From an uncultured Pseudomonadota bacterium (GTDB taxonomy: Bacteria; Myxococcota_A; UBA796; SXON01): a stretch of DNA of 64,000 bases. Position numbers and translations under genes: made by a program. The stretch covers positions 1 through 64,000 of the forward strand of contig CAIMSU010000366.1 of NCBI GenBank assembly GCA_903844155.1. The letters are read 5' to 3'. Shown one piece after another: positions 22,391 to 38,735 of the stretch. Positions within the stretch are counted from its first letter, which is position 1. Every line of letters begins with the position of its first letter. The notes under the pieces are model-generated. The model searched no databases, was not told the origin of the DNA, and saw nothing but the letters and a program-made list of their open reading frames with translations.

Positions 22391-23971
22391 ATGCGGCTCC
22401 GCTCCTTCCTCCTTCCCCTCGTCCTCCTTGGCCTTTCCGTCCCGTCCGCGCTCGCAAACGCGCCCGGGCAGGCGGCGCCCGCCGTGGTCGCGCCCCTCAC
22501 CGCCCCAGCGGTGGCTCCCGCACCCGAAGGCACCGCCGTCCGGATTGGCGCGCCCATCCAGCCGCTGCAGGACGCGCTCGCGCAGCTGTCCAGCGACCCG
22601 ATCTTCAGCTCGGCGGCCGTCTCTGTCGACGTCGTGGACGCGAAGACCGGTGCCCAGGTCTACTCCTGGGGCGACGACAAGGGCCTGATCCCGGCGAGCA
22701 CCATGAAGGTGCTGACGTCCGCCACCGCGCTCCGCACCCTCGGCCCCGCCTGGACGTTCCCGACCTGGGTGATGACCTCGGCGAAGGTCGACGAGACCGG
22801 CACGTTGAACGGCTCGCTCTACATCAAAGGGCAGGGGGATCCGACCATGGTGACCGAGCGGATGTACCGCATGGTCATGGACCTGCGCTTTCAGGGCGTG
22901 ACCGACATCAAGGGCGACGTCGTGTTCGACGACGGCTACTTCGCCGACACCACGCTGATTCCTGGCTGGGACAACGCCGAGGATCTCGACGACGGCCCGA
23001 CCTACTTCACGCCGCTCGGCGCTCTCTCGGCGAACTACAACATCGCTGCCATCGTGGTTCGCCCCGGCGCGACCGTGGGATCGCCGGCGCACGCCGAGGT
23101 CGAGATGCCGACGGCGTCCTCGGTGATCGACGACAAGCTCACGACGGGCAGCGCCAACAGCCGCCGGTGGGTCAAGATCGACCGGAAGCTCGATGACAGC
23201 GGGAAGATCGTGACCTTCACGCTCACCGGCAACGTCCCCGCGGAGAGCGACGCCGAGACGTTCTACAAGACCCTCGCCGATCCGCTCGGCAACTACATGG
23301 GTACCTTCTCCGCGCTGCTCAAGCAGCAGGGCATCAAGGTCCACGGCAAGCTCATCGCCGGCACGACCCCCGCGGACGCCAAGGTGATGTACGTCGAGCA
23401 CAGCGACCCGCTGGTCAACATCCTCGCGGAGATGAACAAGCACTCCAACAACTTCATGGCCGAGCAGGTCGCGCGGACCGTGGGCGCCGAGCGCTACGGC
23501 CTGCCGGGGACGACCGCCAAGGGCACCGAGGCGATCGCCGAATACCTTGGTCAGATCGGCATTCCCGCCACTGACTACAACCTCGTCAACGGCTCGGGCC
23601 TCTCTCGCAACGTCACGCTCAAGCCCTCGGTGCTCGCGAAGGTCCTCGTCGACATGTGGAACAATCCCTCGGTCGGACCGGAGTTCCTGACGACGCTCTC
23701 GGTCGGCGGCCGCGACGGGACGCTGCAGTCGCGGTTCCGTGAAGAGGCCCTCGCCGGGCGGGTCCGCGGCAAGACGGGAACCCTCAACGGGGTGCATTGT
23801 CTCACCGGGTATGTGCGGTCGCAGGACGACCACGTGTACGCCTTCGCCTTCCTCGTCAACAATATCGACGGGGCGCTTTCCCGCGCTCGCCGCGCGCACG
23901 ACCGCCTCGTCGGCGCGCTCGCGGGCTCCTCCGGGAACGTCGCCGACAGCAGCGACGAGCCGTCGCAGTAA
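22391..23971 (+). CDS. dacB: D-alanyl-D-alanine carboxypeptidase/endopeptidase, PBP4 (S13 family)
   Basis: 526 residues. The signal peptide MRLRSFLLPLVLLGLSVPSALA is followed by a Pro/Ala linker and the S13 catalytic domain. Active-site motifs are ASTMK (SxxK), HSNNF (SxN) and GKTG. The large insertion between the first two motifs (FNDDGYF-like region VVFDDGYFADTTL) is typical of PBP4. It cleaves peptidoglycan D,D cross-bridges or terminal D-Ala. ATG at 22391 has GAGG six bases upstream. The last 15 residues are Ser/Asp-rich and disordered. It is the second D,D-peptidase in the window. Confidence 0.93.
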   Translation: MRLRSFLLPLVLLGLSVPSALANAPGQAAPAVVAPLTAPAVAPAPEGTAVRIGAPIQPLQDALAQLSSDPIFSSAAVSVDVVDAKTGAQVYSWGDDKGLIPASTMKVLTSATALRTLGPAWTFPTWVMTSAKVDETGTLNGSLYIKGQGDPTMVTERMYRMVMDLRFQGVTDIKGDVVFDDGYFADTTLIPGWDNAEDLDDGPTYFTPLGALSANYNIAAIVVRPGATVGSPAHAEVEMPTASSVIDDKLTTGSANSRRWVKIDRKLDDSGKIVTFTLTGNVPAESDAETFYKTLADPLGNYMGTFSALLKQQGIKVHGKLIAGTTPADAKVMYVEHSDPLVNILAEMNKHSNNFMAEQVARTVGAERYGLPGTTAKGTEAIAEYLGQIGIPATDYNLVNGSGLSRNVTLKPSVLAKVLVDMWNNPSVGPEFLTTLSVGGRDGTLQSRFREEALAGRVRGKTGTLNGVHCLTGYVRSQDDHVYAFAFLVNNIDGALSRARRAHDRLVGALAGSSGNVADSSDEPSQ

Positions 23972-24127: not shown

Positions 24128-24874
24128 ATGCAGCGTTCGAACTCGATTCTTCTGGCTACCTTCTCGATGGTGGCCGTGTTGTCGCCTGCGTTTGCCGCAG
24201 GGACGGACGCGCCTGCGCCAACCGCAGCCCCATCCGCGACGGCGACGCCGCCGGCTGCGGTGCCGCCCGCCGTCTCCGCGCCTGCTGCCCCGGTCAACCC
24301 CCAGACGCAGGCCGCTGCCGACGCCGCCGCGAGCGCGGACGCCCAGGCACTTGCCACGGTGAACCGACAATTGTTGACGGCTGAAGAGTCGGTGCATCGC
24401 ACCAAGGAGAGCGTCTTCCGCGCAAAGGCAACGCTCCAGCTCCTCAAGGAGATCGTCATTGAGGGCTCCGCGAACGGCGCCCACGTGTTGATCCTGCACG
24501 AAGACAAGCTTGGAAGCGGATTTACCCTCTCCGCGGTCACCTACTTGCTCGACGGGCAGAGCAAGCTCTCCAAGGTCGATTCCTCTGGCGCGCTCGACCA
24601 GACGCGGGAGTTGAAGGTCGACGACGCCTCGATCGCCCCCGGCCAGCACGCCCTCGCGGTGGACTTCAAGGTCACGCCAACCGGTTTTGGCGTGTTCAAG
24701 TACGCCACCGACTACTCGATCGACGTCCGCCAGACCTACGCCTTCACCGTCGAAATCGGCAAGGCGTGCACGATCCACGCGACGATCTCCGAGAAGGGGA
24801 GCGCGGCGGACGCGATGGAGCAGCGCGTGAAGGCCGGATTCGACATGAAGTGCGAGACGCAGAATGCGAGATGA
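24128..24874 (+). CDS. Secreted coiled-coil/beta protein opening the TPR-TolQR cluster
   Basis: 248 residues. Cleavable signal peptide (1-23, ending AFA), an Ala/Pro/Thr-rich linker (25-60), a helical coiled-coil stretch (about 68-112, rich in Glu/Ala/Lys) and a beta-rich C-terminal half. No catalytic motif is seen. Proteins of this build at the start of myxobacterial TPR clusters are often mislabelled dihydrolipoamide acetyltransferase because of the Ala/Pro linker; no lipoyl domain exists here. It ends 19 bp before the first TPR gene and is likely a structural periplasmic part of the same machine. GTG/ATG starts upstream are absent; ATG 24128 is clear. Confidence 0.7.
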   Translation: MQRSNSILLATFSMVAVLSPAFAAGTDAPAPTAAPSATATPPAAVPPAVSAPAAPVNPQTQAAADAAASADAQALATVNRQLLTAEESVHRTKESVFRAKATLQLLKEIVIEGSANGAHVLILHEDKLGSGFTLSAVTYLLDGQSKLSKVDSSGALDQTRELKVDDASIAPGQHALAVDFKVTPTGFGVFKYATDYSIDVRQTYAFTVEIGKACTIHATISEKGSAADAMEQRVKAGFDMKCETQNAR

Positions 24875-24893
24875 GCGCCGCGATCAGGGCTCG

Positions 24894-26996
24894 ATGAGGA
24901 AGGGACCGTGGCGCGCAGTCGCGGTCACCGTCCTGTCGCTGGCGCTTTGCGCTTCGGCGCGGGCGGCGGATCGATCCGTCACCGACCGCATCGCGGGCAT
25001 CGACAGCGACTCCAAGGTCCTCACCTCCCAGGTTGCCGACATCCGGCGCAATTTCACGGATCGTAGCGGGCTCATCGGCGCGTCGGACGCGCGCGATCGC
25101 TACGAGCAGGGCGTCTACGAGTACCTCGTCGGCGACTTCGGGAACGCCGCGACGACCTTTTACATCCTCGTGCAGTCCAACGCGCTCGCCTCGCCCGATC
25201 TCGCCCGCGACTCCGAGTGGTACCTCGCAGAGTGCTTGTTCGAGCTTGGTAATTACCGCACTGCCTCGGACGCATACGCCGCGATCATTGCGTACGGCCC
25301 GACGCACCCGTATTTCCCGGACGCTGCGCGCCGCACGCTGGAGACCGACGCGATCCTTGGGGACACGGCCGCCTTCGACAAGTTCTACAACGACTACATC
25401 GTCTCGGGCAAGGTCAAGACCACCGAGGTGATCAGCTACACCCTCGCGAAGTCGTTCTTCAAGCGCGGCGAGGCGGGCCGGGCGAAGTCGTTGTTCGACC
25501 AGATCGGGCCGACGAGCCCGTACTACTCGCGCGCGCGGTACTTCCTGGGCGTCCAGATGATCCAGGAGCAGAACTACAAGCAGGCGATCGAGGAATTCAC
25601 CAAGGCTGAGGCTGATCCCGTCATCGACGACGATCACAAGCGCGTCAAGGACCTCGCCCAGATCGCGCTTGCCCGCGTGTACTACGAGCTGGGCGACATG
25701 CAGAACGCGGTCGCGTGGTACGGGAAGATCAACCGCACCAGCCCGAACTACGCCGACCAGCTCTACGAGAGCGCCTGGGCCGACATCAAGCGGGCGAGCG
25801 CGTTTGAGGCCGAGTCCAACGCCGAGTTTGCCGCAAAGGGCGATACGCAGGGGCAGAAGCCGCCCGTTGACCCCCGCGCGATCGTCAACTGGCGATCGGC
25901 CATCGGCCAGGTCAACCTGTTCCTGGAACAGTACCCGGACCACCGCTACACCTCCAGCATGAAGATCCTGCAGGGGCACCTGCACATGAAGCTCGAGGAC
26001 TACAGCGGTGCCGAGGACAACTACCAGAAGGTCGTCGCTGAGTACGACCCCGTCGTCAGTTCGTTGGCCGCGATCAAGACCGATCGCACCGTGACCGGCA
26101 AGTTCCTCGACGAGCTGACGGACGACAAGACGGGCGCTGGCGAGGACCTCCTTCCCGGGTATGCCGAGCAGATCCTGCTCGCGCGGCCTGAGGTAAACCG
26201 GGCTGCGGCCGCCTGGGCGAGCCTCAACGAGCAGCGCCAGGAGCTGGTCGACAGCGACGAGATGATCAACCAGCTCCAGATCTCGCTCGGGGACAAGTCC
26301 AAGCGGCTTGGGACCTTCGTGACGGCGACGGCGGAGCTGGACACCATCCACGGCGGCGCCCTGCTGCTCCAGGGCCGGCTGCTCGACGTCGAAATCCAGG
26401 CCCTTCGAGCTGCGGTTCCGTCGCGTCGGGCCGAGCTCGCCGCGTTCCAGAAGCAGCGCGATCAGGCGTACGCGCTGGCCTCCAACGCGAAGGATGTCGA
26501 TGCATCCGTTGCGGCTACGCTCGCGGGCATCCACAAGCAGCTATCCGGGTTTCGGACCGATTCTACCGATCTCACCCAGCTCCAGCAGATCGACCGCCTG
26601 TGGGCCTCCGCGCTCGCGGTGGATACGCAGGTCTCGCAGACGACGGCGCTCCTGAAAGATTCGGAGATTCGCGAGCTGGACGCCGTCCGGGCAAAGCTCG
26701 CGGACACCGAGAACAACGTCGCCGCGCTGCACACGAGCGTGGACACGCAGTCGGCCTCGGTGGAGATCCTGGCCGAGTCTGCCGTGCAGACGGGCGTGAA
26801 GGCGGTCGAGGGTGACTTCCGCACCGACGTCTTGACGGCGGACAAAGGGTACGTTGACGTGGCCTGGCTGCGCGAGACCGCGACAACCGAGCAGGAGACG
26901 TCGCTGACGCAGGAGCAGGAGCGCCTGCGCCAGCGGATCCGCGACCAGTACGACGCCCTTCGGACGACCCAAGGGATCGAGGAGACGGCCAAATGA
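24894..26996 (+). CDS. Periplasmic TPR and coiled-coil protein
   Basis: 700 residues. The signal peptide MRKGPWRAVAVTVLSLALC...ARA justifies ATG 24894 over ATG 24864, with AGGG about 5 bases upstream. Residues 60-370 form TPR-like repeats (e.g. ERYEQGVYEYLVGDFGNAATTFYILV-type units; ALARVYYELGDMQNAVAWYGKI). Residues 400-690 are long helices with Gln/Glu/Ala heptads, probably coiled coil. It resembles AgmU/GltD-like scaffold proteins of myxobacteria by layout only. It overlaps the next gene by 4 bp (ATGA). Confidence 0.75.
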   Translation: MRKGPWRAVAVTVLSLALCASARAADRSVTDRIAGIDSDSKVLTSQVADIRRNFTDRSGLIGASDARDRYEQGVYEYLVGDFGNAATTFYILVQSNALASPDLARDSEWYLAECLFELGNYRTASDAYAAIIAYGPTHPYFPDAARRTLETDAILGDTAAFDKFYNDYIVSGKVKTTEVISYTLAKSFFKRGEAGRAKSLFDQIGPTSPYYSRARYFLGVQMIQEQNYKQAIEEFTKAEADPVIDDDHKRVKDLAQIALARVYYELGDMQNAVAWYGKINRTSPNYADQLYESAWADIKRASAFEAESNAEFAAKGDTQGQKPPVDPRAIVNWRSAIGQVNLFLEQYPDHRYTSSMKILQGHLHMKLEDYSGAEDNYQKVVAEYDPVVSSLAAIKTDRTVTGKFLDELTDDKTGAGEDLLPGYAEQILLARPEVNRAAAAWASLNEQRQELVDSDEMINQLQISLGDKSKRLGTFVTATAELDTIHGGALLLQGRLLDVEIQALRAAVPSRRAELAAFQKQRDQAYALASNAKDVDASVAATLAGIHKQLSGFRTDSTDLTQLQQIDRLWASALAVDTQVSQTTALLKDSEIRELDAVRAKLADTENNVAALHTSVDTQSASVEILAESAVQTGVKAVEGDFRTDVLTADKGYVDVAWLRETATTEQETSLTQEQERLRQRIRDQYDALRTTQGIEETAK

Positions 26997-29900
26997 TCGG
27001 ACCCCGGCAACCCGGGCGGGCCCCGCTCCTTGTCATGCTGGCGCTCGCAGGCCTCGTGGTCGCGCCCGCGCACGCGAGCGACCTCCCGAAGGTCACAAAC
27101 CCGCAGGAATGGCAGGATTTCCAGGACACGCTGCAGCGGTATCAGGACCGCATGGGCGAGCTGCAGGGCGACGTCGCCGAGATCGTGCAACAGCACGAGA
27201 CAGACGAGCAGAACCGCATCGACGGCATCTACGGTCCGATGATCGACAAGCTGAAGGCCGATGAGACGGCGCAGCGCAAGACCGCGATGGAGCGGCTTGA
27301 GGGCTTCCTCAAGAAGTACCCGGTCAGCCCCTACTCGGCGAACATGAAGTTCCGCTTGGCGGACCTGTACTTCCAGCAAGCGGACATCGACTACTTCGCG
27401 TCGTTCGTCGAATACCAGAAGTTCGTCAAGGCCTCCGCGGACCACCCCGAGATCGTGCTTCCCGAGCCGCCCCAGAAGGACTACTCCAAGTCCGTCGCCC
27501 TGTACAAGGATATCCTGGCGAACAACCAGGACTTTGAGAACCTAGCCGACACGTACTACATGCTCGGCTGGTGCTACAACGTCCAGGACTCCACGGTCTA
27601 TGACACGGAGCTGGCGCGCGGTAACTACGAGGCGATCATCGGCCGCTTTCCCGGCACCGAGTTTGCGAACGACGCGAACATGGCGCTCGGCGAATACTGG
27701 TTTGACCTTCCGAACCCGACCAAGAACACGCCGACCGCCATCAGCTACTACAAGGCCGTCCTGGCCGATGGCGAGAAGGGCCGGAACTACGACAAGGCGC
27801 TGTACAAGCTCGGTTGGTCCGAGTACAAGCTCAACCATTACGACGCCGCGCTCGCGGACATGGTCACGCTGCTGGACTTCTCCGACAAGGAGTTCATCCA
27901 GACGGGAAAGCCGGCGAACACCCGGCCGGAGGCGATCAAGTACCTCGCGATCTCGTATTCGGACATGGGTCTGAACCTCTCGCGGAAGCCAATCGATCTT
28001 GCCGTGGAGCACCTCAACAAGGTCGGCGACCGGCCGTGGGAGCACGAGGAGCTGGAGACGCTCGCGACGGTCCTCGTCACCGCCGCCAAGCTCGAAGACG
28101 CGATCGACGTCTGGGCGTACATGCAGAAGCGCTGGCCGCTCGACCCGAAAAACCCGATCTACCAGCACGAGATCGCGCTCGCCTACCTGAAGCTGCCCGC
28201 CGGCGCCGATCACCCCGACTCGGATGCGGCGATGGCCGCGTTGTCCGCCAACTACTCGGACGACAGCCCGTGGTTTGCGGCCAACCGCACGAACGCCGAC
28301 GCGATCGCCGCCGCCCGTGATTTCATCCAGGAGTCGTTGGGCCAGGTGGCCACGACCCTGTTCGCCAACGCCCAGAACACCGGGCAGGTCGCCGACTTTG
28401 CGGCAGCCGCGGCCAAGTTCAAGGAGTGGCTCGACAAGTACCCGTTCGGCAACTCGTACAACGACTACGAGTTCTACTACGCGTCCTGCTTGTACTCCTC
28501 CAATCAGTTCGACGACGCGTTGGCGGCCTACGCGCAGGTCCTGAAGAACGAGCACTCGCCCTACCAGGAGAACGCCCGGTACCAGATCATGCAGGCGCGA
28601 CGCCAGCAAGTGCTCGCCAAGTACGGCAAGGCCGAGGACGTCCCGCAGGGCCAGACCATCGACAAGACGGTCACCTCGGACTTTGGCAAGAGCATCACCG
28701 TCTACCATGTGTCCGACGAGCAGAAGGCGTACATGGCGTCGATCGACGACGTACTGGCCCGCACCTTCACCTCGCCGGACGTGGCTCCCCTGGTCGACAA
28801 GAGCCGGCCGGCGCTCACCTATCTGCCCGGTCAGATCCTATTCAATCACGGCGACTTTGTGGACGCGCGACCGCGCCTGCAGGAAGTCGTGGACAAGTAC
28901 CCGCAGACCAAGGAGGCCGTGTACTCGGCCGGCCTGTTGGTCGACATGTCGTCGCAGGAAGGCGATCTCGAGAAGGTGTCGAGCTTGATCGACGAGTTCA
29001 CGGCCAAGCACCTCGGGCCCAACGGCGCAGCCGGCGGGGTCGACGACACCATGGCCAAGCTCAAGACGATCCAGGAGCAGGCCCAGTTCAAGCTCGCGCA
29101 CGACAAGGCGGACAAGGGCGACCACATCGGGTCTTCCAAGGCATTCCTGGCGTTCATCGAGCGGTTCCCGGCGTCGGACTACATCAAGGATGCGCTCTAC
29201 AACGCTGCCAACCAGGCCGATGTCGCGGGCGACGCCACGCTCGCGATCTCGCTGTTCGAGCAGTACGTCGCGCAGTACCCGACGGACGACAAGTCCGAGG
29301 GGTTGTCCTTCCGAATTGCAGACACGTACGCGCAGACGTTGAACCTCCCGAAGGCCATCCAGAACTACGATTACATCGTGAAGAATTTCCCGGACAGCGG
29401 CGACGCGAAAGCGGCGATGTACAACAGTGCGTTCTTCAAGGTCGGCGTCGGGGACCACAAGGGCGCCGCGCTGGAGTACGAGCAGTACGCCAACAAGTAC
29501 GGTGATGCGCCGGACGCCGAGCAGACCTACTGGGCCGCTGGCGACCAGTGGGAGATCATCGGCGAGAATGACGCCTTTGCCTTCTACAATCGCTACCTCG
29601 ACAAGTACGGCGCGTCGAACCCGGACCACGCCGTCGAGGCGCTCTACAAGGTCGCCAAGATCCAGGAGAAGCGCCCCGGCGGCAAGGCTCCCGCGACCTG
29701 GGCCAAGCTGCAGGACACGTTCCGGTCGGCCGCGACGGCTGGCAAGCCGCTCTCGCAGAAGAGCCGGGCGATGGCTGCAGAGGGCGCCGTCAGCGACCTC
29801 ACGAAGGAATTCGACGCGCTGAAGACCGTCACCTGGTCCAAGACGGACGAGAAGAAGAACGTCGACTACATCCTGAACAAAGACACCGGGATGCCGTCCA

Positions 29901-30328
29901 AGATCAACGCGCTCACCAACCACGCGGTCGACATCGTCAACACGTATTCGGACTACGACTCCTCGCAGGCCGCGCAGTACTTCATCGGCATGTCCCGGCT
30001 CTCCTTCGCGGATGCGCTCTACAACGTGCCCGTCCCGAAGGAGATCGCCAACAACCCGGACCTCGTCGACGAGTACAACGCCCAGTTGGACCGCTACCGG
30101 CTGCCGTTTGAGGATCAAGGCAAGAAGTTCCTCATCGCCGCGTTGGACAAGGCGCGCACGGACAAGCGCTGGTCGTCGTGGAACTCCAGGATGTTGAGCG
30201 AGCTCAACGCGCGCTACCCGTCTGAATTCCCGAGCGAGCGCACGGAGACCCGTGGCCCCATCGATCCGGGTGATGTGCCCCTCGGCATGCCGACCGACGA
30301 TGTCTCGAAGACAGAGGAGACGCCGTGA
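26993..30328 (+). CDS. Giant periplasmic TPR protein
   Basis: 1111 residues, the largest protein of the cluster. Signal peptide MIGPRQPGRAPLLVMLALAGLVVAPAHA, then almost entirely TPR or TPR-like helix pairs (for example NYDKALYKLGWSEYKLNHYD, QFDDALAAYAQVLKNEHSPY, AISLFEQYVAQYP, GAALEYEQYANKYG). Abundant Tyr/Asp/Lys surface residues suggest a protein-binding superhelix in the periplasm. The C-terminal 40 residues are charged and disordered. Start ATG overlaps the upstream stop (ATGA), and its own stop overlaps the lipoprotein start (GTGA). It may correspond to the AgmU/GltD-type scaffold, an inference from size, TPR content and context. Confidence 0.75.
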   Translation: MIGPRQPGRAPLLVMLALAGLVVAPAHASDLPKVTNPQEWQDFQDTLQRYQDRMGELQGDVAEIVQQHETDEQNRIDGIYGPMIDKLKADETAQRKTAMERLEGFLKKYPVSPYSANMKFRLADLYFQQADIDYFASFVEYQKFVKASADHPEIVLPEPPQKDYSKSVALYKDILANNQDFENLADTYYMLGWCYNVQDSTVYDTELARGNYEAIIGRFPGTEFANDANMALGEYWFDLPNPTKNTPTAISYYKAVLADGEKGRNYDKALYKLGWSEYKLNHYDAALADMVTLLDFSDKEFIQTGKPANTRPEAIKYLAISYSDMGLNLSRKPIDLAVEHLNKVGDRPWEHEELETLATVLVTAAKLEDAIDVWAYMQKRWPLDPKNPIYQHEIALAYLKLPAGADHPDSDAAMAALSANYSDDSPWFAANRTNADAIAAARDFIQESLGQVATTLFANAQNTGQVADFAAAAAKFKEWLDKYPFGNSYNDYEFYYASCLYSSNQFDDALAAYAQVLKNEHSPYQENARYQIMQARRQQVLAKYGKAEDVPQGQTIDKTVTSDFGKSITVYHVSDEQKAYMASIDDVLARTFTSPDVAPLVDKSRPALTYLPGQILFNHGDFVDARPRLQEVVDKYPQTKEAVYSAGLLVDMSSQEGDLEKVSSLIDEFTAKHLGPNGAAGGVDDTMAKLKTIQEQAQFKLAHDKADKGDHIGSSKAFLAFIERFPASDYIKDALYNAANQADVAGDATLAISLFEQYVAQYPTDDKSEGLSFRIADTYAQTLNLPKAIQNYDYIVKNFPDSGDAKAAMYNSAFFKVGVGDHKGAALEYEQYANKYGDAPDAEQTYWAAGDQWEIIGENDAFAFYNRYLDKYGASNPDHAVEALYKVAKIQEKRPGGKAPATWAKLQDTFRSAATAGKPLSQKSRAMAAEGAVSDLTKEFDALKTVTWSKTDEKKNVDYILNKDTGMPSKINALTNHAVDIVNTYSDYDSSQAAQYFIGMSRLSFADALYNVPVPKEIANNPDLVDEYNAQLDRYRLPFEDQGKKFLIAALDKARTDKRWSSWNSRMLSELNARYPSEFPSERTETRGPIDPGDVPLGMPTDDVSKTEETP

Positions 30329-31998
30329 TTCGCTCGAACCCCCGAACCCGGCCGTCCCCGCTCCTCACCCTTGTCGGGCCTGTCGCGCTCGTCGCGCTCG
30401 CAGGCTGCCCGAAGCAGCCTACGACGACGGCGCCGGTAGCCACCCCCGCGCCTGTCGCCACCGCGCCGACGACTCCGCCCCCGGCCACCACGCCCGACGC
30501 GACGGCCACGCCCGCCGCGACGCCCGACGCCGCCGCTGCGCCCGCGGACACCGGCCCAGTCGACCCCCTGAAGCCCGATGATCGCAAGCAGCTTCAGGAC
30601 GCCGCCGCGATGCTTGGTACGCGCGACCCGGGAAAAGCGGGCCAGGCGCTTGGACTTTTGAACTCCCTGGCCGTGGCCTATCCGGATCTGGCCGCGATCC
30701 CCTACGACATCGGTGTGGCCTGGCACTACCAGGGCAACGACGACGAGGCGCGCAAGGCCTGGTTGCGGGCAACCAGCGTGGACCCCACGTTCGACAAGGC
30801 ATGGTTGAACCTGGGCGTGCTCCAGCAGACCGCCGGGCACCTGGATCTCGCGCTTGCCTCGTTCCAGTCCGGCCTCGCCTACAACGCCCGCAGCGTGGAC
30901 CTTCAGGTCGCCGCGATCAACGACCTGCGCGAGCAGAAGCGGTACGACGAGGCGATCGCCCAGGCCAAGGCCGCGCTCTCCGTGAACTCGCGCGCGATCC
31001 CGCTCTTCTGCAACCTCGCGATGGTCTACATCGAGACCAACCAGCTCGATCTCGCGGCGTTCATGCTCACCAAGGCCGAGGAGGACAACGGCGGCGGCAA
31101 CGCCCAGCTCCACGCGACGCTCGGCCAGGTCTATCTGCTCAAGAACGACCCCGGAAACGCGGTCATCGAGTGGCAGAAGGCGCTCACGATCGACCCGTTC
31201 CAGATGGCCGCGCTCCAATATCTTGGCGCGTACTACCTTGAGAATCGCGCCTACGAGGACGCCCAGCCGCTCTGGGAGCGCGCGGTGGCGACAGCGCCCA
31301 GGAACGCCGGAATCCACATGAACCTGGCCATCTGCTACCGCGGTCTCGGCTCGCGCTTTGCGGACAAGCCGGATGACCCGGGGTCGGTGGCATCGGCGGC
31401 CGCGCAGTTCGCCGCCGCGAAGAAGGAATATGAGACCGCGCTCTCCCTCGACAGCAAGAACGCCGAGCCCTGGCGCGACCTCGCGGTGCTCTACGGCGAC
31501 TACGAGAAGGACTACGACGCCGCCCTGAACGCGATCGCCCAATACCGGTCGCTCGGCGGGGGCACCCCTGCGGAGCTGGACGCCTGGGTCGCGAACATCC
31601 AGAAGACCAAGGCCAAGGCAGAGAAGGACAAGGCCCGCGCCGAGGCTCGCAAGAAGAAGGACGCCGAGGAGGCAGCCGCTGCGGCAGCCGCGGCACTCCA
31701 GCAGCCGGCGCCTGCGCCTGACGGTACGCAACCCGCGCCTACACCCGACGGCACCCAGCCAGCGCCCACGCCCGCTCCCGCGCCGACGCCCGCTCCCACG
31801 CCGACGGACGGGCAGACGCCTGCGCCGTCGCCCGCTCCCGCGCCGGCCCCAGCCCCAACCGGCACCGATCAGCCCTGGGGTACCCCCGCGCAGCCTGCGC
31901 CCGCGCCAACGGATGGCCAACCCGCGCCGGCTCAGCCAGCGCCCGCGCAACCCGCCCCGGCCCAGCCTGATCCGAACAGCCCCTGGGGCGGTCATTGA
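30325..31998 (+). CDS. TPR lipoprotein (AglT/GltE-like)
   Basis: 557 residues. Signal peptide ends in LVALAGC (lipobox; Cys about residue 28), so the protein is lipid-anchored, probably to the outer membrane. A Thr/Pro/Ala linker (30-80) leads into about 8 TPR units (e.g. AWLNLGVLQQTAGHLDLALASFQSGL; LHATLGQVYLLKNDPGNAVIEWQKAL). A Lys/Ala-rich helix follows and then a 110-residue Pro/Ala/Thr/Gln low-complexity tail ending in NPNSPWGGH-type sequence. GTG start overlaps the giant TPR gene. Layout and place in the cluster match the TPR lipoprotein of myxobacterial A-motility systems; identity is inferred. Confidence 0.78.
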   Translation: MIRSNPRTRPSPLLTLVGPVALVALAGCPKQPTTTAPVATPAPVATAPTTPPPATTPDATATPAATPDAAAAPADTGPVDPLKPDDRKQLQDAAAMLGTRDPGKAGQALGLLNSLAVAYPDLAAIPYDIGVAWHYQGNDDEARKAWLRATSVDPTFDKAWLNLGVLQQTAGHLDLALASFQSGLAYNARSVDLQVAAINDLREQKRYDEAIAQAKAALSVNSRAIPLFCNLAMVYIETNQLDLAAFMLTKAEEDNGGGNAQLHATLGQVYLLKNDPGNAVIEWQKALTIDPFQMAALQYLGAYYLENRAYEDAQPLWERAVATAPRNAGIHMNLAICYRGLGSRFADKPDDPGSVASAAAQFAAAKKEYETALSLDSKNAEPWRDLAVLYGDYEKDYDAALNAIAQYRSLGGGTPAELDAWVANIQKTKAKAEKDKARAEARKKKDAEEAAAAAAAALQQPAPAPDGTQPAPTPDGTQPAPTPAPAPTPAPTPTDGQTPAPSPAPAPAPAPTGTDQPWGTPAQPAPAPTDGQPAPAQPAPAQPAPAQPDPNSPWGGH

Positions 31999-32041
31999 TC
32001 CCCGCCGTCGACCATTGTGGTGCATTTGACCGGAGGTTCTC

Positions 32042-32275
32042 ATGACGTCCCTCTCCCGTTTCGCCGTCCTCTGCGTCGCGATCCTCGCCCTCTCGGCCCC
32101 CGCGTTCGCCGCCAAGGAGTTCGTGATCAAGGGCGATGACATCAAGGCCGAGGTCCAGAAGCCCGAGATCACCATCCTCATCAGCCGGCAGAACCTCACG
32201 CCGAAGTACGTCCTCGATCTGAAGGAGAGCTTTCTCCCCAAGATCATCGACTCGGTCAACGAGAAGCCATTCTAG
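32042..32275 (+). CDS. 77-residue secreted protein of the TPR-TolQR cluster
   Basis: A small secreted protein: signal peptide 1-23 (ends AFA), mature part about 54 residues with the block EITILISRQNL and YVLDLKESFLPKII. GGAGG lies about 5 bases before the ATG. I know no function. Its place between the TPR lipoprotein and the TolQ-like gene, and its compact charged-hydrophobic pattern, suggest it is a conserved small component rather than a chance frame. Confidence 0.65.
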   Translation: MTSLSRFAVLCVAILALSAPAFAAKEFVIKGDDIKAEVQKPEITILISRQNLTPKYVLDLKESFLPKIIDSVNEKPF

Positions 32276-32333
32276 TGCCGGCCGAATTCCGGCTCGCTGA
32301 CGCGCCCGCCGTAGTGGCGCCCGGAGCCTGATC

Positions 32334-32987
32334 ATGGATTGGAACCTCGGGAAGTGGATCTCCGACGGCGGCATCTTCATGTGGCCGATCCTCGTCTGTG
32401 CCGTGATCGGCGCGACGATCTCGGCGGAGCGCTTCATCTTCCTGTTCCTGCGCGCGTCCATCCACGCGCCGACGTTCCTGGCGCAGGTCCAGCGTGATGT
32501 GCTCGACGGAAACGTCGATGGCGCGCTGAAGATCTGCAACGCCGAGTCCGCGGCGGTGCTGCCACGGGTGCTCAAGGCGGGCTTGTTGCGCGCGGGCCGG
32601 CCCGAGGCTGAGATTCGCGACGCGCTCGAGGAGGCAACGCTGGAGGTCGCGCCGCAGGTCCAGCGCCGGATCCCGTACCTCACCACCATCGCCAACCTCT
32701 GCACGCTGCTCGGTCTGCTCGGTACCATCCAGGGCTTGATCCTCGCGTTTCACGCCGTGGCGGACGCGAACGCAGAGGCCCGCTCCACCGCCCTCGCCTC
32801 TGGTATCGCCGTCGCCATGAACGCAACCTTCGCCGGCTTGCTCGTGGCGATCCCGGTCCTCGCTCTCCACGCGATCGTCGCTGCCCGCGCGAACCAGATC
32901 CTGGACGAGGTGGACCACGGCTCGGCCCGGCTCGTCAACCTCCTCAACGCGGTCGCGCTCCGGGGTGCGTCGGCGCGCGCGGAGTGA
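32334..32987 (+). CDS. MotA/TolQ/ExbB-family proton channel protein
   Basis: 217 residues with three membrane helices: about 13-38, 118-145 and 160-185. The TolQ-type signature runs from IPYLTTIANLCTLLGLLGTIQGLI to ASGIAVAMNATFAGLLVAIP. Family members form a pentamer around TolR/ExbD dimers and use the proton gradient to drive a periplasmic partner. The two following genes encode TolR/ExbD-like proteins. Its stop overlaps a possible GTG start of the next gene. Not TolQ or ExbB of a housekeeping Tol-Pal set, since no TolB or Pal is present. Similar to AglX/AglR in context. Confidence 0.9.
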   Translation: MDWNLGKWISDGGIFMWPILVCAVIGATISAERFIFLFLRASIHAPTFLAQVQRDVLDGNVDGALKICNAESAAVLPRVLKAGLLRAGRPEAEIRDALEEATLEVAPQVQRRIPYLTTIANLCTLLGLLGTIQGLILAFHAVADANAEARSTALASGIAVAMNATFAGLLVAIPVLALHAIVAARANQILDEVDHGSARLVNLLNAVALRGASARAE

Positions 32988-32989
32988 GG

Positions 32990-33484
32990 ATGGTCCGACG
33001 CTACGGCATGGTCGACAACGGGCCCGGGCTCGATCTGGTGCCGATGCTGAGCGTCATGGTGCACCTCGTGCCGATGCTGCTGTTGAGCGTGCGGTTCCTC
33101 GCGCTCGCGCAGATGGCAGCGCGCGGCCCGGTGATCTCGGCGTTGGAGCCGCCGGATGCGGGTGCGCTCGCCGAGCAGTCCAAGCGCGTTGTGAGCGTGG
33201 AGATCGATGGCAAGGGGTTTCTGATCGGCGGGAGCGCCGGCCTCGATCCCCGGATCCCCTGCACTGCCGCGTGCGCGCCGGACACCTACGACTACGCGGC
33301 GCTGGACAACGCGTTGCGCTCGCTCAAGGCCGATCATCCCGACGAAAAGCGCATCGTCATCGCCCCGGGCGACGATGTCCCGTTTGACGTCGTCGCCCGC
33401 GTGATGGCGGAGGCGCGGTCGGACGTCAGCGGTGGGAAGGCGCGTGAGCTGTTCCCCGAGCCCCTGCTCGCGGTGCGGCAGTGA
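32990..33484 (+). CDS. TolR/ExbD-like protein lacking the proton-site Asp
   Basis: 164 residues. One N-terminal membrane helix (about 15-40, LVPMLSVMVHLVPMLLLSVRFL) and a periplasmic domain with a final ExbD-like fold (IVIAPGDDVPFDVVARVMAEAR). In TolR/ExbD the helix begins with a PL-I-D motif whose Asp carries protons; here the equivalent reads VPMLSVMV, with Ser. A proton-relay role is therefore unlikely for this subunit alone. ATG 32990 has GGAG five bases upstream; GTG 32984 (GTGA overlap) is an alternative. It overlaps the next gene by 4 bp. Confidence 0.82.
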   Translation: MVRRYGMVDNGPGLDLVPMLSVMVHLVPMLLLSVRFLALAQMAARGPVISALEPPDAGALAEQSKRVVSVEIDGKGFLIGGSAGLDPRIPCTAACAPDTYDYAALDNALRSLKADHPDEKRIVIAPGDDVPFDVVARVMAEARSDVSGGKARELFPEPLLAVRQ

Positions 33485-33978
33485 GCGACGTGCGGCGGGA
33501 CGATCCCCGGCTCCGGCGTCAACGCCGGCGTGAGCGTGCGGCGCGGCGGTTGCCGACGAACCCGTATCTGCAGATCACGTCGATGACGGACATGTTTACG
33601 TTGATCCTGGCGTTCCTGCTGTCGTTCTACGACCCGGCGCAGGTCGATGCGCCTTCCCTGGTGCTGCCCTCCGTTGCCGCGCTCGGGGGCGAGAAGGAGG
33701 GGATCAAGCTGGAGGTTCGGAAGGATGCCGTGGTGCTCGACGGGGTCGTCCTGCTGCCCCTGGACGGGAAGGGCGGGATCGAGTCGGGGACGGAGCGGAG
33801 CGGTCGCATCCTCACGGCTGTCCGCGATGCGCTGCAGCCCCGCGTTGCCGACCCAGCCCCGACGCTGCTGGTCGCCTGCGACAAAACCGTGCCTTTCAGC
33901 GTGATCGGCGACGTGCTGAGCTCAGCGAACGCCGCGGGTTTCCATGACTACCGGTTCGTCGTGGAGAGCACGCGCTGA
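33481..33978 (+). CDS. TolR/ExbD-like protein with conserved membrane Asp
   Basis: 165 residues. An Arg-rich cytoplasmic tail (1-25) precedes one membrane helix. The helix starts ITSMTDMFTLILAFLLSF; the Asp at about 37 sits where the proton-carrying Asp of ExbD/TolR lies. The periplasmic part ends with the typical LLVACDKTVPFSVIGDVLSSANAAGFHDYRF pattern. With the preceding Asp-less paralogue it may form a heterodimer inside the TolQ-like ring. GTG start overlaps the previous stop (GTGA). Confidence 0.85.
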   Translation: MSDVRRDDPRLRRQRRRERAARRLPTNPYLQITSMTDMFTLILAFLLSFYDPAQVDAPSLVLPSVAALGGEKEGIKLEVRKDAVVLDGVVLLPLDGKGGIESGTERSGRILTAVRDALQPRVADPAPTLLVACDKTVPFSVIGDVLSSANAAGFHDYRFVVESTR

Positions 33979-33990
33979 TCGCGTTCGACG

Positions 33991-34198
33991 GGTCCGGTGT
34001 TGGCTGGCCAAGTCGAAGGCGCGGCTTCGTGCCCCGCACGAAGCGTGCCTTCGACGCGGTCAGCAGCGGTCGCGCTCGCCGGAACCTGCGCAGGTGTGGA
34101 CGGGTCAAGAGAGGTCACGAACCCAGGTCCCAGCCGGAAAACATGGCGCGACGGGCAACAAACAGCCAACACCGGACCGAAGGGTCCGGGGTTGGCTG
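33991..34198. repeat. Short palindromic element with perfect 16-bp inverted ends
   Basis: GGTCCGGTGTTGGCTG (33991-34006) and its exact reverse complement (34163-34178) bound a 188-bp segment. A third copy with one change, GGTCCGGGGTTGGCTG, follows at 34183-34198 and pairs with the second copy around a GAAG loop. Inside, GTCGAAGGC...GCTTCGTGC (34012-34032) and 34036-34055 form a second near-perfect hairpin with a CCC loop. No coding potential. It is either a MITE-like insertion or an RNA switch with competing stems, between the second TolR-like gene and the PglI-like gene. Confidence 0.7.
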
Positions 34199-34252
34199 CG
34201 CGGGAACCGATTTCACGCTACGTTGTCAGTCGACGTACACCCGGAATTCGCA

Positions 34253-35602
34253 ATGCCGCCAGCCACGCAGTCCATCGCCCCCGTTGCCGCCAAGCCGAAC
34301 GCCAAGGTGCTCCGCCTCGGGTTGATCAAGGAGGGCAAGGTCTCCGAGCGCATCACGAAGCTCGGCGAGGTGGTCGGCGTTGGCGAGAGCCAACGAAATC
34401 TCTTCCAGATCTCGGACGCGAAGCTCGGGCAGCGGCTCGAGATGTTCATCCCGCAGCGTGAAGGGTACCTGCTGCAGGTGCCCGACTGGGTCGAGGGGAT
34501 GATCCAGACGAAGGACGGGATGAAGTCGCTGAAGGATCTGCGGTCGACCGCGCAGAAGAAGGGGGACCTGTATGTGTACCTCCTCGACGACAAGATGCGC
34601 GGCAAGCTGGTCATCGGCACCAGCAGCATCCTCTTCCAGTTCGTCCCCGCGCCTCCCCAGCCCGAGCGCGCGATGTCCGCCTCGGACTTTCGGGCAAAGT
34701 TCTACGACGACGAGGATCCGCTGTTCCTCGCCCTCCTCGGCACGCTCTCCGTCGTCGCCGCCGCGTTCCTCTGCTACCTCGCGATCACGCCCCGGCCGGA
34801 TGACTCGGAGCTCGTCACCCTCGACGACGTCACCAAGCTCCTCGACAAGGACATCAAGCCCATCGCGATTGATGTCCAGCAGCCGCAGGACGACGGCAAC
34901 AAGCCCGCCGAGGACAAGCCGAAGGACAAGCCGGCGCCCAAGGACGACAAGTCCAACCAGGCGCCGCCGCAGGCCGCCACCCCCCAGTCCGCCGCCCAGC
35001 AGGTCGCGCAGAAGTCGCTCCTGCTCCAGGCGCTCGGCACGACCGGCGTCGGAACCACCGGCGACACAGCGGTGGACATCCTCGGCGATCAAGCAGCCAT
35101 CCAGGGCCTCGACCACGCGCTCGCTGGCGTTACGGGCGCGCAGCAGGCCGACGCGTCGAACATCGGCAAGACACAGGCCGGCGGCGCCGGTGGGCGTGGA
35201 GACGTCACGGTTGGCGTGGCTACCGCGGGTGGCGGCACCGCCGCGGTTGGCGGCAACGTGGAGGTCAAGGTCAAGCGGCCGGTCGTCGCGGAGGGCGAGG
35301 TGAGCAGCGACGCCGATGCTGGTACCGTCGGCCAGATCAAGTCCGTCGTCAGCAAGCGCAACGGCACGTTCGCGAGCTGCGATCAAACGGCGCTCAAGCA
35401 GAACCCGGACCTCAAGGGTCGAATCGTGGTCGGGTGGTCCATCAACGCCGGCAAGGTCGGCAACGTGCATGTGGTCACGAACAGCACGGGCGACGATCAG
35501 CTCGGCACCTGCTTTGCCACCGTCGTCCGCGGCCTGCGCTTTGACCCGTCCATCACCCAGGAAGTCGACGGGTACACCTGGGCGGTCTCCGGCGCGAACT
35601 GA
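34253..35602 (+). CDS. AgmX/PglI C-terminal-domain protein (TonB-like energy transducer)
   Basis: 449 residues. N-terminal cytoplasmic FHA-like region (20-145) ends with the family block SSILFQFVPAPP. One membrane helix (about 163-185, FLALLGTLSVVAAAFLCYLAI) leads to a Pro/Lys/Asp linker, a Gly/Ala-rich stretch and a C-terminal domain of the AgmX/PglI tail type. In the tail, ASCDQTALKQNPDLKGRIVVGWSI and GTCFATVVRGLRF carry the two conserved Cys. In myxobacteria such proteins span the periplasm as TonB-like partners of Agl TolQ/R motors. ATG 34253 chosen; no strong ribosome site is visible because the palindromic element ends just upstream. Confidence 0.85.
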   Translation: MPPATQSIAPVAAKPNAKVLRLGLIKEGKVSERITKLGEVVGVGESQRNLFQISDAKLGQRLEMFIPQREGYLLQVPDWVEGMIQTKDGMKSLKDLRSTAQKKGDLYVYLLDDKMRGKLVIGTSSILFQFVPAPPQPERAMSASDFRAKFYDDEDPLFLALLGTLSVVAAAFLCYLAITPRPDDSELVTLDDVTKLLDKDIKPIAIDVQQPQDDGNKPAEDKPKDKPAPKDDKSNQAPPQAATPQSAAQQVAQKSLLLQALGTTGVGTTGDTAVDILGDQAAIQGLDHALAGVTGAQQADASNIGKTQAGGAGGRGDVTVGVATAGGGTAAVGGNVEVKVKRPVVAEGEVSSDADAGTVGQIKSVVSKRNGTFASCDQTALKQNPDLKGRIVVGWSINAGKVGNVHVVTNSTGDDQLGTCFATVVRGLRFDPSITQEVDGYTWAVSGAN

Positions 35603-35937
35603 GCGCGGGGCCTGTTGGGGGGCTGGGCGGCTCGGTCGGCCCCTCGCCGGTCCAGACACTTCGCGGAACGCCGCGTCGATCCGTCGCGGGTTCGCTTTGG
35701 TGTGCGGACCCTCGCGCATTGCCGCACGGTGCGATGGGTAAGCCTTTGCCGGTCCCTGACAGGAATGGGGAGAGTCCAGCGGTCCCGGTGCACTGATCAA
35801 GGACGCACACGAGGCCCGTCATGCAGCCGACCAGCAAATCCCCCTTCGGCCCCACGGGTACGCCGCCGGGTATACAACATTTCGACAGGGTGCGCCGCGC
35901 GCCATCCGGCTATGCTGGTGATCACCGGAGAACCGAG
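35603..35937. other. Intergenic region after the PglI-like gene
   Basis: 335 bp without a supportable gene. A weak hairpin (GTGCGG...CCGCAC, about 35701-35726) lies near the middle, and small AT-rich spots (GGGTATACAACATTTCG near 35870) could hold the promoter of the next three-gene cluster. No repeat shared with other parts of the window was seen. Confidence 0.4.
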
Positions 35938-36498
35938 ATGACCCAGTCCGCGTATCGGTCGCTGTCGCTCGCCGCTTTGCTGCTCGTTGCGCTGGTTGGT
36001 CGCGCGCGCGCCGCCGAGCCCGATATCTCGACCGCTGTCGAGCAGTCCGCGTCGCTGTCCATGACGGACAAGCTCAAGTTCGCGGAGGGTGCCGTTGGCA
36101 CGACCCAGGGCTGGGTCAGTGCACTCCAGGCGCTCAAGGACGCGGCCCTGAAGGATCGCGCGCTGACGGACGACGAACGCCGCGCCCTGATCGCCTGCTA
36201 CGACAAGGTGCTGACGCCCTTGAACGCGTTCCTGAGCACGATGCACAAGTCCGCGAACGAGATGCAGGCGGACATGGTGGCGGGCGACGATGCCCACGTG
36301 GACCTGCTCTTCAAGCAGATCGCCGTTGTCTACAAGCTCGCCGTCGCCAAGCAGGCGGAGTCCATGGTCTGCACGTCGAACCCGGATGGGGCCACGGCAA
36401 ATGGGGATCAGGTCACGAGCCTTGACGGCCCCCCGGACTCCAACACCGCCGTCACCGACGTGGTGGTACCGCCTACAGTCGTCGTGACGGCCAACTGA
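35938..36498 (+). CDS. Secreted helical protein of unknown function
   Basis: 186 residues. Signal peptide (1-25, ARAAEP at the cleavage site) and a mature part predicted to be helical (about 35-145, rich in Ala/Lys/Asp/Leu), with a Thr/Val tail. No domain recognised. ATG 35938 has GGAG about 7 bases before it. It stops 5 bp before the outer-membrane barrel gene, so it is probably cotranscribed with the export pair and may be a periplasmic adaptor. Role is inference. Confidence 0.65.
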   Translation: MTQSAYRSLSLAALLLVALVGRARAAEPDISTAVEQSASLSMTDKLKFAEGAVGTTQGWVSALQALKDAALKDRALTDDERRALIACYDKVLTPLNAFLSTMHKSANEMQADMVAGDDAHVDLLFKQIAVVYKLAVAKQAESMVCTSNPDGATANGDQVTSLDGPPDSNTAVTDVVVPPTVVVTAN

Positions 36499-36503
36499 GA
36501 CCC

Positions 36504-37883
36504 GTGACGCTTCGCCCGACCGGCATCGTTCCTGCGCTTTTCGTCCTGCTGCTGGCGAGTCCGGTGGCACAGGCGGGGGCTGGGGATCACATCCACTCGG
36601 GTCAGCTCGTCATCACGCCGTCGGTGACCTTTGGCACGACCTACCACTCGAACATCTACCTCTCGGACGGCAGCGCGGACTCCCCGACCGTCGGCGCCCC
36701 GGCGATCCTCGTCGAGCCGCAGGTCAAGCTGACGCTCCCCAAGAAGGATCTGCAGCTCGACTGGGAGCTTGGCTACCACCTCAAGAAGTTCCTCGACCTC
36801 GCGCCGGGAGACCCATACAACGTCCAGAACCTCGACCGGTTCAACGAGGTCGACAGCACGCTGGGCTTCGTTGGCTTCAAGCGCAGCGCGGTCGGGATGA
36901 TGTTCGGCGACGTGTTCTCGATCTCCAACTACCCGGCCGAGCTGGCGACGAGCGACTCGGATGCGAACGTCATCGTGACCTCCAACGATGCGCAGGGCGG
37001 GGTGGTGCTCCGACCAGGATCCGCGCTGGACATCGACGTGCTCGGGCAGGTCGGCATCGACAACTACAACATCCCCGGGGTGTTGCAGGAGAACGCGACG
37101 ACCTTCAACTACAACAACCGCGCCAGCTACGGGCCGATCCTCAACGCCAACTGGCGCTTCTTGCCCAAGACCACGATGGTGAGCGACAACTCGGTCCTCT
37201 GGAACAACTGGAAGGACAACCTCATCGCCTCCATCGGCCCCCAGACCGCGGGTGCCGACTACGGCAACTACATCGGGAAGCCCGATTCGATCGCGTGGCG
37301 CACGCTCTGGGGCATCAAGGGCCAGTTCACCCAGAAGATCGGCGCGGAGATCGAGCTTGGCTACGGGGAGGCCTACTACGACGAGCAGACCGTGCTCGAT
37401 CAGGCCGGCTCGATCGCGAGCGACAGCGCGGAGCTGGATCTCAACACCGGTCAGGAGAGCTTCGACAAGGATCTCAAGGGTCTGAAGGACGGCTCGCTCG
37501 TGAACGTCCAACTCGCCTACGCGCCCGCGAAGACGCAGACCGTCACGCTCGGGTACAAGAAGGACTTCCAGGACGCGGTGTTCACCAACTACGTTGCCTA
37601 CAACTATGTTTTCGCCCGCTACGGGGGCACGTACTTCAAGCACATGGGGGTCGGCGCCGAGCTTGGTTTGCGGTACGACGCGTACCACGGCGAGGTGCAT
37701 CGGACCGATCGCAACCTCTCCGCGAAGGCGGAGGTCGGCTACAAGTTCACGAGCTTCCTCGATGCATCTTTGAGCGGCGGGTGGGCGCAACGGTCCTGTG
37801 CGGTGTCCGGCTGCGAGGGCGTGTTCTACGCGACCCAGTACGACGATTTCTGGTCCGAGCTTTCTGTGACGGCCACCTATTGA
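36504..37883 (+). CDS. Outer-membrane beta-barrel protein, probable polysaccharide export porin
   Basis: 459 residues. Signal peptide 1-24 (ends AQA), then alternating amphipathic strands rich in Tyr, Asn, Gly and Trp through the C-terminal SELSVTATY, an outer-membrane insertion-like end (final aromatic Tyr). Size allows about 16-18 strands. Directly downstream is a short OPX (Wza-like) protein without its own membrane span. This pairing matches the barrel plus short-OPX exporters of Myxococcus xanthus (EpsX/EpsY, WzpX/WzpS types). Family naming is by layout; the exact subfamily is not certain. GTG start at 36504, 5 bp after the previous stop. Confidence 0.75.
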   Translation: MTLRPTGIVPALFVLLLASPVAQAGAGDHIHSGQLVITPSVTFGTTYHSNIYLSDGSADSPTVGAPAILVEPQVKLTLPKKDLQLDWELGYHLKKFLDLAPGDPYNVQNLDRFNEVDSTLGFVGFKRSAVGMMFGDVFSISNYPAELATSDSDANVIVTSNDAQGGVVLRPGSALDIDVLGQVGIDNYNIPGVLQENATTFNYNNRASYGPILNANWRFLPKTTMVSDNSVLWNNWKDNLIASIGPQTAGADYGNYIGKPDSIAWRTLWGIKGQFTQKIGAEIELGYGEAYYDEQTVLDQAGSIASDSAELDLNTGQESFDKDLKGLKDGSLVNVQLAYAPAKTQTVTLGYKKDFQDAVFTNYVAYNYVFARYGGTYFKHMGVGAELGLRYDAYHGEVHRTDRNLSAKAEVGYKFTSFLDASLSGGWAQRSCAVSGCEGVFYATQYDDFWSELSVTATY

Positions 37884-37943
37884 TCAGCGGCGAATTCTGG
37901 CTGTTTCCGGCAGAAGTTGCGATAGACTGAATCCGGAGGTCTC

Positions 37944-38735
37944 TTGCTCCTCGTCCTCCTGGCCACCCTGTACGCTCGCGCGGCCGACGGCGTCGCCGAA
38001 GTCCTTGACTACCAGATCGGGCCGGGCGACGTGCTTTATCTCGAGGTTGTCGGCCAGCCCGACATGACGGGGGAGGAGCGCGTTTCTGGAGACGGGAACA
38101 TCATGGTCCCGGAGGCCAAGTCCGTGCCGATCGCTGGTCTCACCCTGGACCAGGCGCGCGACGCGATCATCGGCACCTTGGCGGCGGGCTACCTGCGGAA
38201 TCCCCAGGTCGTGCTCAACGTCAAGGAGTTCGCGAGCAAGAAGATCGCGGTGAGCGGCGGGGTGAAGACGCCGGACAGCTACGCGATGGAGGGCGGTCGG
38301 TCGCGCCTCTCGGATGTGCTCCTGCGCGCGGGTGGGCTTGTGGACCCGGCGGCGCCGCGGGCGGAGGTCTGGCGCGACGTTCAGGGCGTCCGCCACATCA
38401 TCCCCGTGGACCTGGAGCGCTTGCGGCGGGGCGAGGCTGAGGGCGACATCGAGCTGCTCGCGGGCGACACGGTGTACGTCCCTCAGGTCGACCAGGTCTA
38501 CGTCGACGGGCAGGTGGGAAAGCCGGGGGGCGTGGCGTACCGCGACGGGATGAAGCTCACGGAGGCGATCGCGCAGGCCGGGAGCGTGACGTCGTTGGGC
38601 CGGGAGCAGGCGGTGACCATCACGCGGGACGGCGAGCAGATCCGCGTGAACCTCAAGCGGGTGCTCGCGGGAAAAGAGGCGGACTTCGCGCTCAAGCCGA
38701 AGGACCACATCTACATCCCGGAGTCGACCTTCTGA
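37944..38735 (+). CDS. Polysaccharide export (OPX) protein, short Wza-like
   Basis: 263 residues. Signal peptide (MLLVLLATLYARA) followed by a Poly_export domain (YQIGPGDVLYLEVVGQPD to NPQVVLNVKEF) and two SLBB-like segments (KIAVSGGVKTPDSY; VYVDGQVGKPGGVAY). There is no C-terminal amphipathic helix and no lipobox, so it cannot form its own outer-membrane pore as Wza does. It should dock on the barrel encoded upstream. The TTG start at 37944 is supported by GGAGG 4 bases upstream. No glycosyltransferases are nearby, so the exported polymer must be made elsewhere. Confidence 0.88.
   Translation: MLLVLLATLYARAADGVAEVLDYQIGPGDVLYLEVVGQPDMTGEERVSGDGNIMVPEAKSVPIAGLTLDQARDAIIGTLAAGYLRNPQVVLNVKEFASKKIAVSGGVKTPDSYAMEGGRSRLSDVLLRAGGLVDPAAPRAEVWRDVQGVRHIIPVDLERLRRGEAEGDIELLAGDTVYVPQVDQVYVDGQVGKPGGVAYRDGMKLTEAIAQAGSVTSLGREQAVTITRDGEQIRVNLKRVLAGKEADFALKPKDHIYIPESTF

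Follow-up and report, generated by a model that had tools for sequence, protein, structure and literature searches.

The closest described systems are those of Myxococcus xanthus, in which aglR, aglQ, aglS, gltC, gltD, gltE and gltG form a published seven-gene core (PMC3169522). In the Agl-Nfs machine, the spore-coat (Exo) polymer is moved around the cell (PMC3858216). M. xanthus also has the cluster G4, with MXAN_1919 and the gltD homologue MXAN_1922, and the motor M2 (MXAN_3003-3005). A mutant in the G4 gltD glides normally, and an M2 mutant does likewise (PMC3169522). Both G4 and M2 were left without a function in a 2011 study. Two proteins for export of the biosurfactant polysaccharide (BPS) are WzaB, MXAN_1915, and WzpB, MXAN_1916 (PMC9603273); WzpB, EpsX and ExoB have been reported as 18-strand barrels (PMC9601211). 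The wzaB mutants lose BPS secretion (PMC7310880), and wzaB has been called an orphan gene, remote from the others of its pathway.

The locus described here lies in the window, i.e., the whole 64,000-nucleotide stretch of DNA that was analysed. The module consists of twelve co-directional genes at 24128-38735 on the + strand (Table 1), and is larger than the nine-gene unit of the initial annotation. The nine genes (24128-35602) are all present on the + strand with the character described: a TPR lipoprotein, a small secreted protein, a TolQ-like channel with two TolR-like proteins, and a protein with an AgmX/PglI tail, whose myxo_SS_tail score is over the cut-off. Of the periplasmic TPR proteins, the GltC- and GltD-like ones stand, while the first gene is not TPR. 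Beyond 35602 the module continues, with the genes for H225 (a secreted protein), an outer-membrane barrel and a polysaccharide-export (OPX) protein. The start of the GltG-like reading frame is moved from 33944 to the position from which orthologues align. Similarly, the start of H225 is chosen by its signal peptide and orthologue length (the longest ORF starts at 35821).

Table 1. Genes of the module, with the evidence for each assignment
Gene product	Coordinates	Strand	Evidence
A248, secreted protein (coiled coil and beta-sandwich) of no known family	24128..24874	+	signal peptide
GltC-like periplasmic TPR protein	24864..26996	+	NCBIfam GltC 2.9e-19, 69 bits
GltD-like periplasmic TPR protein, orthologue of G4 MXAN_1922	26993..30328	+	TPR/YfiO matches, tree
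GltE-like TPR lipoprotein	30325..31998	+	NCBIfam GltE 1.9e-17 (below cut-off), lipobox LAGC
GltF-like secreted protein, 77 aa	32042..32275	+	signal peptide; orthologues in 37/41 loci
AglR/TolQ-like ring subunit, proton motor	32334..32987	+	MotA_ExbB 1.9e-26, Agl clade
TolR1 (AglQ position), ExbD/TolR-like	32984..33484	+	ExbD 9.8e-10
TolR2 (AglS position), ExbD/TolR-like	33481..33978	+	ExbD 3.1e-8
GltG-like bitopic transducer, 449 aa	34253..35602	+	NCBIfam GltG 1.7e-21, myxo_SS_tail
H225, small secreted protein	35938..36498	+	31/41 loci; orthologues in Myxococcus
18-strand outer-membrane barrel, WzpB-like polysaccharide porin	36504..37883	+	AlphaFold, profile
Short OPX protein, 263 aa, TTG start	37944..38735	+	Poly_export 6e-19, SLBB domains

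A248 and gltC overlap by 11 bp, and 4-bp overlaps occur at four junctions (gltC/gltD, gltD/gltE, aglR/tolR1 and tolR1/tolR2), which would be typical of a single operon. Gaps of 43 and 58 bp flank gltF, and the gaps ahead of gltG and H225 are about 270 bp and 335 bp, respectively. Scans for promoters and terminators did no better than on shuffled sequence. A PBP4/DacB-like carboxypeptidase gene (22313-23971, + strand), a neighbour of the module at most loci of the order, lies 156 bp upstream and may belong to the same operon.

A248 has no Pfam match and is found in G4-type clusters generally, with orthologues in the order and in Myxococcus; its AlphaFold model (pLDDT 75) gave no convincing match in the PDB by Foldseek, only weak adhesin or transthyretin-like sandwich matches. 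The GltF-like protein weakly matches F genes from nfs and from Glt-type clusters. The GltG-like protein has a cytoplasmic domain without FHA, one transmembrane helix and an AgmX/PglI (TonB-like) tail. The NCBIfam GltG profile is covered from position 225 only and no FHA match was obtained; its only matches in the PDB were weak ones to TonB C-termini (E 0.02). Its orthologues are mostly 436-506 aa long.

The arrangement is widely conserved. Searched with profiles made from loci of the same order, 22 of 41 loci had the eleven genes from A248 to the barrel in unchanged order and orientation, which is far beyond chance. Most of the others are interrupted by contig ends or are short of one or two fast-evolving genes; the motor genes are inverted in locus L107 and absent in locus L105. 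A GltD-like protein occurs in 59 of the 63 genomes of the order and the window's GltD type in 56 (by manual sorting of the search table). SppA and PBP4/DacB upstream and FtsK downstream are common flanks across the order. Relatives are recorded as uncultured Deltaproteobacteria/Myxococcota. The window comes from a draft genome of 375 contigs (95.6% complete, 5% contamination), but the main claims are protected, because the module is conserved in dozens of independent assemblies.

By its composition (GltC, GltD, GltE, GltF and GltG, an AglR and two TolR-like proteins), the module is assigned to the Agl-Glt/Nfs class. The whole published core, plus a GltF-like gene, is held in one region. The window AglR falls in a 34-row clade (97/88) together with M. 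xanthus M1 and M2, with TolQ, ExbB and other MotA-type proteins outside. The likeness to Myxococcus Agl/Glt modules proposed in the initial annotation is borne out by this core set and the AglR-clade motor. A Tol-Pal or TonB origin, whose clustering had been set as the refuting test, is ruled out, as TolQ and ExbB are placed elsewhere in the AglR tree and the TolQ-like protein groups with AglR; the absence of Pal and TolB also holds, with no such family matches among the cluster proteins. The NCBIfam scores are nevertheless well under the equivalog cut-offs (69 vs 450 bits for GltC, 63 vs 225 for GltE and 76 vs 650 for GltG). With family models applied to the cluster, none of GltA, B, H, I, J and K was recognised, and the barrel could be a functional analogue.

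Among the M. xanthus paralogues, one GltD matches the window GltD with 605 bits and the others with at most 237 bits. In the GltD tree, the window is joined with the mglBA-linked Myxococcus clusters in a single clade (SH-aLRT 100), outside of which are the three other M. xanthus paralogues and a second Glt/Nfs-type cluster of this genome (on contig C334). The best match is taken as G4 (MXAN_1922), because another M. xanthus cluster, on contig C31, looks like nfs by its eight-gene order, and because of the place of the match itself beside mglBA. By this tree, the window GltD is an orthologue of the uncharacterised G4 protein, and not of Glt or Nfs.

In named genomes of Myxococcus relatives, the G4 cluster reads A248-GltC-GltD-GltE-GltF-GltG-(extra gene)-H225-barrel-OPX, without motor genes. 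It stands directly behind mglBA and directly before a WzpB-WzaB-like pair. M. eversor, Pyxidicoccus and Archangium are among the genomes with this contiguity; for M. xanthus itself, the draft is broken between GltE and the barrel. The Myxococcus pair beside G4 has the lengths of WzpB and WzaB (421 and 204 aa), and the published tags (1915/1916 against 1922) fit the gene count between the G4 gltD and the barrel-OPX pair. We take MXAN_1925 and MXAN_1926 to be mglA and mglB. MglA, with 85-100% identity to the M. xanthus protein, was found whole at 27 loci; in 26 of these it is just upstream, and in the remaining one (L201) it is 5.4 kb away. Adjacency to mglBA is a property of the Myxococcia clusters; the window-type clusters of this order have PBP4 and FtsK as neighbours instead. 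This does not exclude them from G4, because such adjacency is not a published criterion. In the literature searched, of which coverage was partial, no statement of a link between G4 and BPS export was found, and the linkage appears to be new.

Residues T131 and T165 of AglR are invariant, and the ion-carrying Asp of TolR2 is kept in 31 of 31 loci of the order. In contrast, the transmembrane Asp of the window TolR1 is replaced by Ser, and Ser or Asn occupies this position throughout the 29 clusters of standard layout; only L107 and L108 have the Asp. The motor thus retains the ExbBD/TolQR-type ion-motor residues in TolR2 and AglR, with the Asp of TolR1 lost. An extra, conserved Cys pair in the periplasmic domain accompanies the Asp loss in TolR1 of the window clade. 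M. xanthus M1 and M2, told apart by the subunit lengths in PMC3169522, keep the Asp in both TolR-like subunits and are without the Cys pair. The state of the TolR1 Asp is explained by two changes on a weakly resolved tree. The motors of L107 (6443-8503) and L108 (3092-5082) are in the M2-like clade, and their motor genes look like replacements by M2-like ones. A TolR1 homodimer would be without a proton site, yet TolR1 is retained across the order, which suggests that the axle is a TolR1-TolR2 heterodimer. The loss of the channel Asp in one TolR-like subunit with its constant retention in the other is a new point.

Locus L200 carries a G4-type cluster that comes directly after mglBA and includes a motor of its own, which groups with M2 (98/96). 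Because an M2-type motor is here part of a G4 cluster, it is suggested that M2 is the displaced motor of G4 in Myxococcus. We predict, as a further new point, that the orphan M2 motor drives G4. This pairing agrees with the report that MXAN_3003, of M2, did not bind GltG or NfsG (PMC3858216). The window motor itself is not simply M2, since it forms its own group in the tree and an M2-like motor is also present on contig C212.

AglR/Q/S and GltG homologues, for which the initial annotation proposed a search elsewhere in the genome, are present there. An M2-like AglRQS on contig C212 (L016) and an M1-like AglRQS on contig C117 (L015) have no adjacent glt genes; together with the window motor, this makes three or more Agl-type motors in the genome. 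The second Glt/Nfs-type cluster (contig C334; L010, L035) encodes an outer-membrane barrel, GltC, GltD, GltE, GltF, an FHA-bearing GltG and a second tail protein, and is without its own AglRQS. At about 69.5 kb of contig C366 (L017, 9444-10076), 5.5 kb past the window, a short secreted protein resembles only the C-terminal part of GltD. AgmX/PglI tails occur in 15 stretches of this genome. The MglA reported as missing is indeed not in the window, but there is one distant MglA-like GTPase, the sole one found in the genome, on contig C328 (L078, 8698-9276), with 47% identity to the query, the M. xanthus sequence (identical to PDB 6hjh). No MglB match was found in the stretch of C328 around it, and a Pfam Arf search of the genome gave no clear MglA.

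The last two genes of the module point to the outer membrane. Eighteen long strands are present in the barrel model (pLDDT 82.7), which resembles outer-membrane porin folds in the PDB. The barrel profile matches the WzpB-type barrel at 6e-24, a remote match, but no ORF adjoining either of the two remaining OPX genes of M. xanthus. With an OPX protein of 263 aa, the pair falls within the published bounds of the OPX/18-strand translocon (OPX of at most 280 aa plus barrel; PMC9601211). The barrel is kept in 31 of 41 loci of the order, and an OPX gene is directly behind it in 39 of 75 barrel-bearing loci, Myxococcus included (some of these loci are copies of one genome). Within the order, the module is followed by barrel and OPX at 11 loci, of which ten belong to the window's own family and one is L109. 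Outside the order, the same holds for 19 clusters (two via overlapping ORF calls), which are mostly of Myxococcia but include the more distant L173 and L194. Because the pair recurs in the order, in Myxococcia and in L173 and L194, the linkage of module, barrel and OPX is probably ancestral. In the order's other families, nearly all genomes lack an OPX gene after the barrel. Orthology of the window OPX to WzaB could not be shown: the best tree separates them (supports 87-90), and a single clade is not rejected by the AU test (p = 0.11). The OPX gene may have been swapped at the locus, because it is outside the WzaB group in the best tree. No PCP, Wzx or Wzy gene is beside the module, and four PCP genes are elsewhere in the genome.

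The module is probably a proton-driven trans-envelope machine for the export or surface transport of polysaccharide, and is the form of the M. xanthus G4 cluster that carries its own motor. The list of its parts is firm, and the analysis also shows their homology, the gene order, the G4 orthology, the linkage to porin and OPX and the Asp loss; joint assembly, the direction of force and the cargo are inferred. Proton flow would be converted into movement by the AglR ring around a TolR1-TolR2 axle. GltG, anchored beside the motor in the inner membrane, would carry the movement across the periplasm by its TonB-like tail to GltC, GltD, GltE and GltF, which would reach the outer membrane, where the barrel and the OPX protein would form the polysaccharide exit. 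By analogy with Agl-Nfs, GltG and the TPR proteins may pass the action of the motor on to the polymer or to the exit pore, and the machine may either help to pull the polymer out or move it along the surface after exit. The more specific proposal of a motor dedicated to polysaccharide at the outer membrane, with an obligate TolR1-TolR2 axle carrying a single Asp and half the usual sites, and with M2 driving G4 for BPS, is more doubtful and is put forward only tentatively.

The initial annotation had suggested a generic proton-driven transport or gliding motor. Transport stands, and is made more specific by the porin and OPX; gliding is unlikely. A motor moving cells as Agl-Glt does, with adhesion via the barrel or secreted slime, would be consistent with the shared core parts and with the adjacency of the orthologous cluster to mglBA in Myxococcus relatives. 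Its GltD, however, is grouped with G4 and not with Glt, gliding is retained in G4 and M2 mutants of M. xanthus (PMC3169522), none of the gliding-specific GltA, B, H, I, J and K is recognised in the cluster, and the C334 cluster with its FHA-bearing GltG and the M1-like motor on C117 are better gliding candidates in this genome. Polysaccharide export or transport is considered more likely than gliding because the module is linked to a sugar-polymer export pore.

This linkage has been weighed against another cargo, lipid or protein, in which case porin and OPX would be chance neighbours or could be neighbours sharing regulation only. The lack of OPX behind the barrel in most other families of the order and the presence of H225 and A248, which have no known role, would allow it; the barrel, however, is kept even there (31 of 41 loci), and barrel and OPX recur beside the module in distant lineages, which makes another cargo quite unlikely. 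A Tol-Pal-like or division machine, tethering or constricting the outer membrane, appears unlikely. The place between PBP4 and FtsK, the SppA, PBP4 and FtsK flanks kept across the order and the TPR/YbgF-like repeats would fit envelope maintenance, but the TolQ of Tol-Pal is elsewhere in the AglR tree, the cluster is without Pal or TolB, and the Myxococcus cluster is behind mglBA and not beside PBP4, so that the flanks are not essential to function.

The gene order joins G4, M2 and wzaB in one testable proposal. If polysaccharide is indeed the cargo, the module would be a third polymer-handling machine beside Agl-Glt and Agl-Nfs, and the proposal would bear on what powers the passage of exported polysaccharide through the outer membrane. 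The one-Asp motor is relevant to the question of hetero- or homodimers of AglQ and AglS (PMC9389320).

Compared with known systems, the module shares with Tol-Pal and TonB-ExbBD an ExbBD/TolQR-type proton motor and a TonB-like transducer tail, but differs in having two TolR-like subunits and no Pal, TolB or TonB-dependent receptor, and in its AglR tree position. With the M. xanthus Agl-Glt gliding machine it shares the motor type and the GltC, D, E, F and G parts. Agl-Glt, in contrast, has an FHA domain in GltG and owns GltA, B, H, I, J and K; GltD and AglR are in separate clades, and the window proteins score under the NCBIfam equivalog cut-offs. In Agl-Nfs, too, the polymer leaves the cell via a short OPX protein with an 18-strand barrel (ExoA/ExoB), but the paralogue is different. 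The nfs genes are presumably MXAN_3371-3378, and, because these tags are distant from those of exo (MXAN_3225/3226), nfs and exo are not side by side. The BPS pair WzpB-WzaB (MXAN_1916/1915) is similar in the barrel profile match and in the same position behind the module, and different in the remoteness of that match and in the OPX grouping of the best tree. The closest system is M. xanthus G4, with the same GltC-D-E-F-G order, an FHA-less GltG, A248, H225, barrel and OPX (as seen in Myxococcus relatives). The Myxococcus G4 has no internal motor genes, adjoins mglBA and carries an extra gene between GltG and H225, whereas the window module has its own AglR-TolR1-TolR2 and sits between PBP4 and FtsK.
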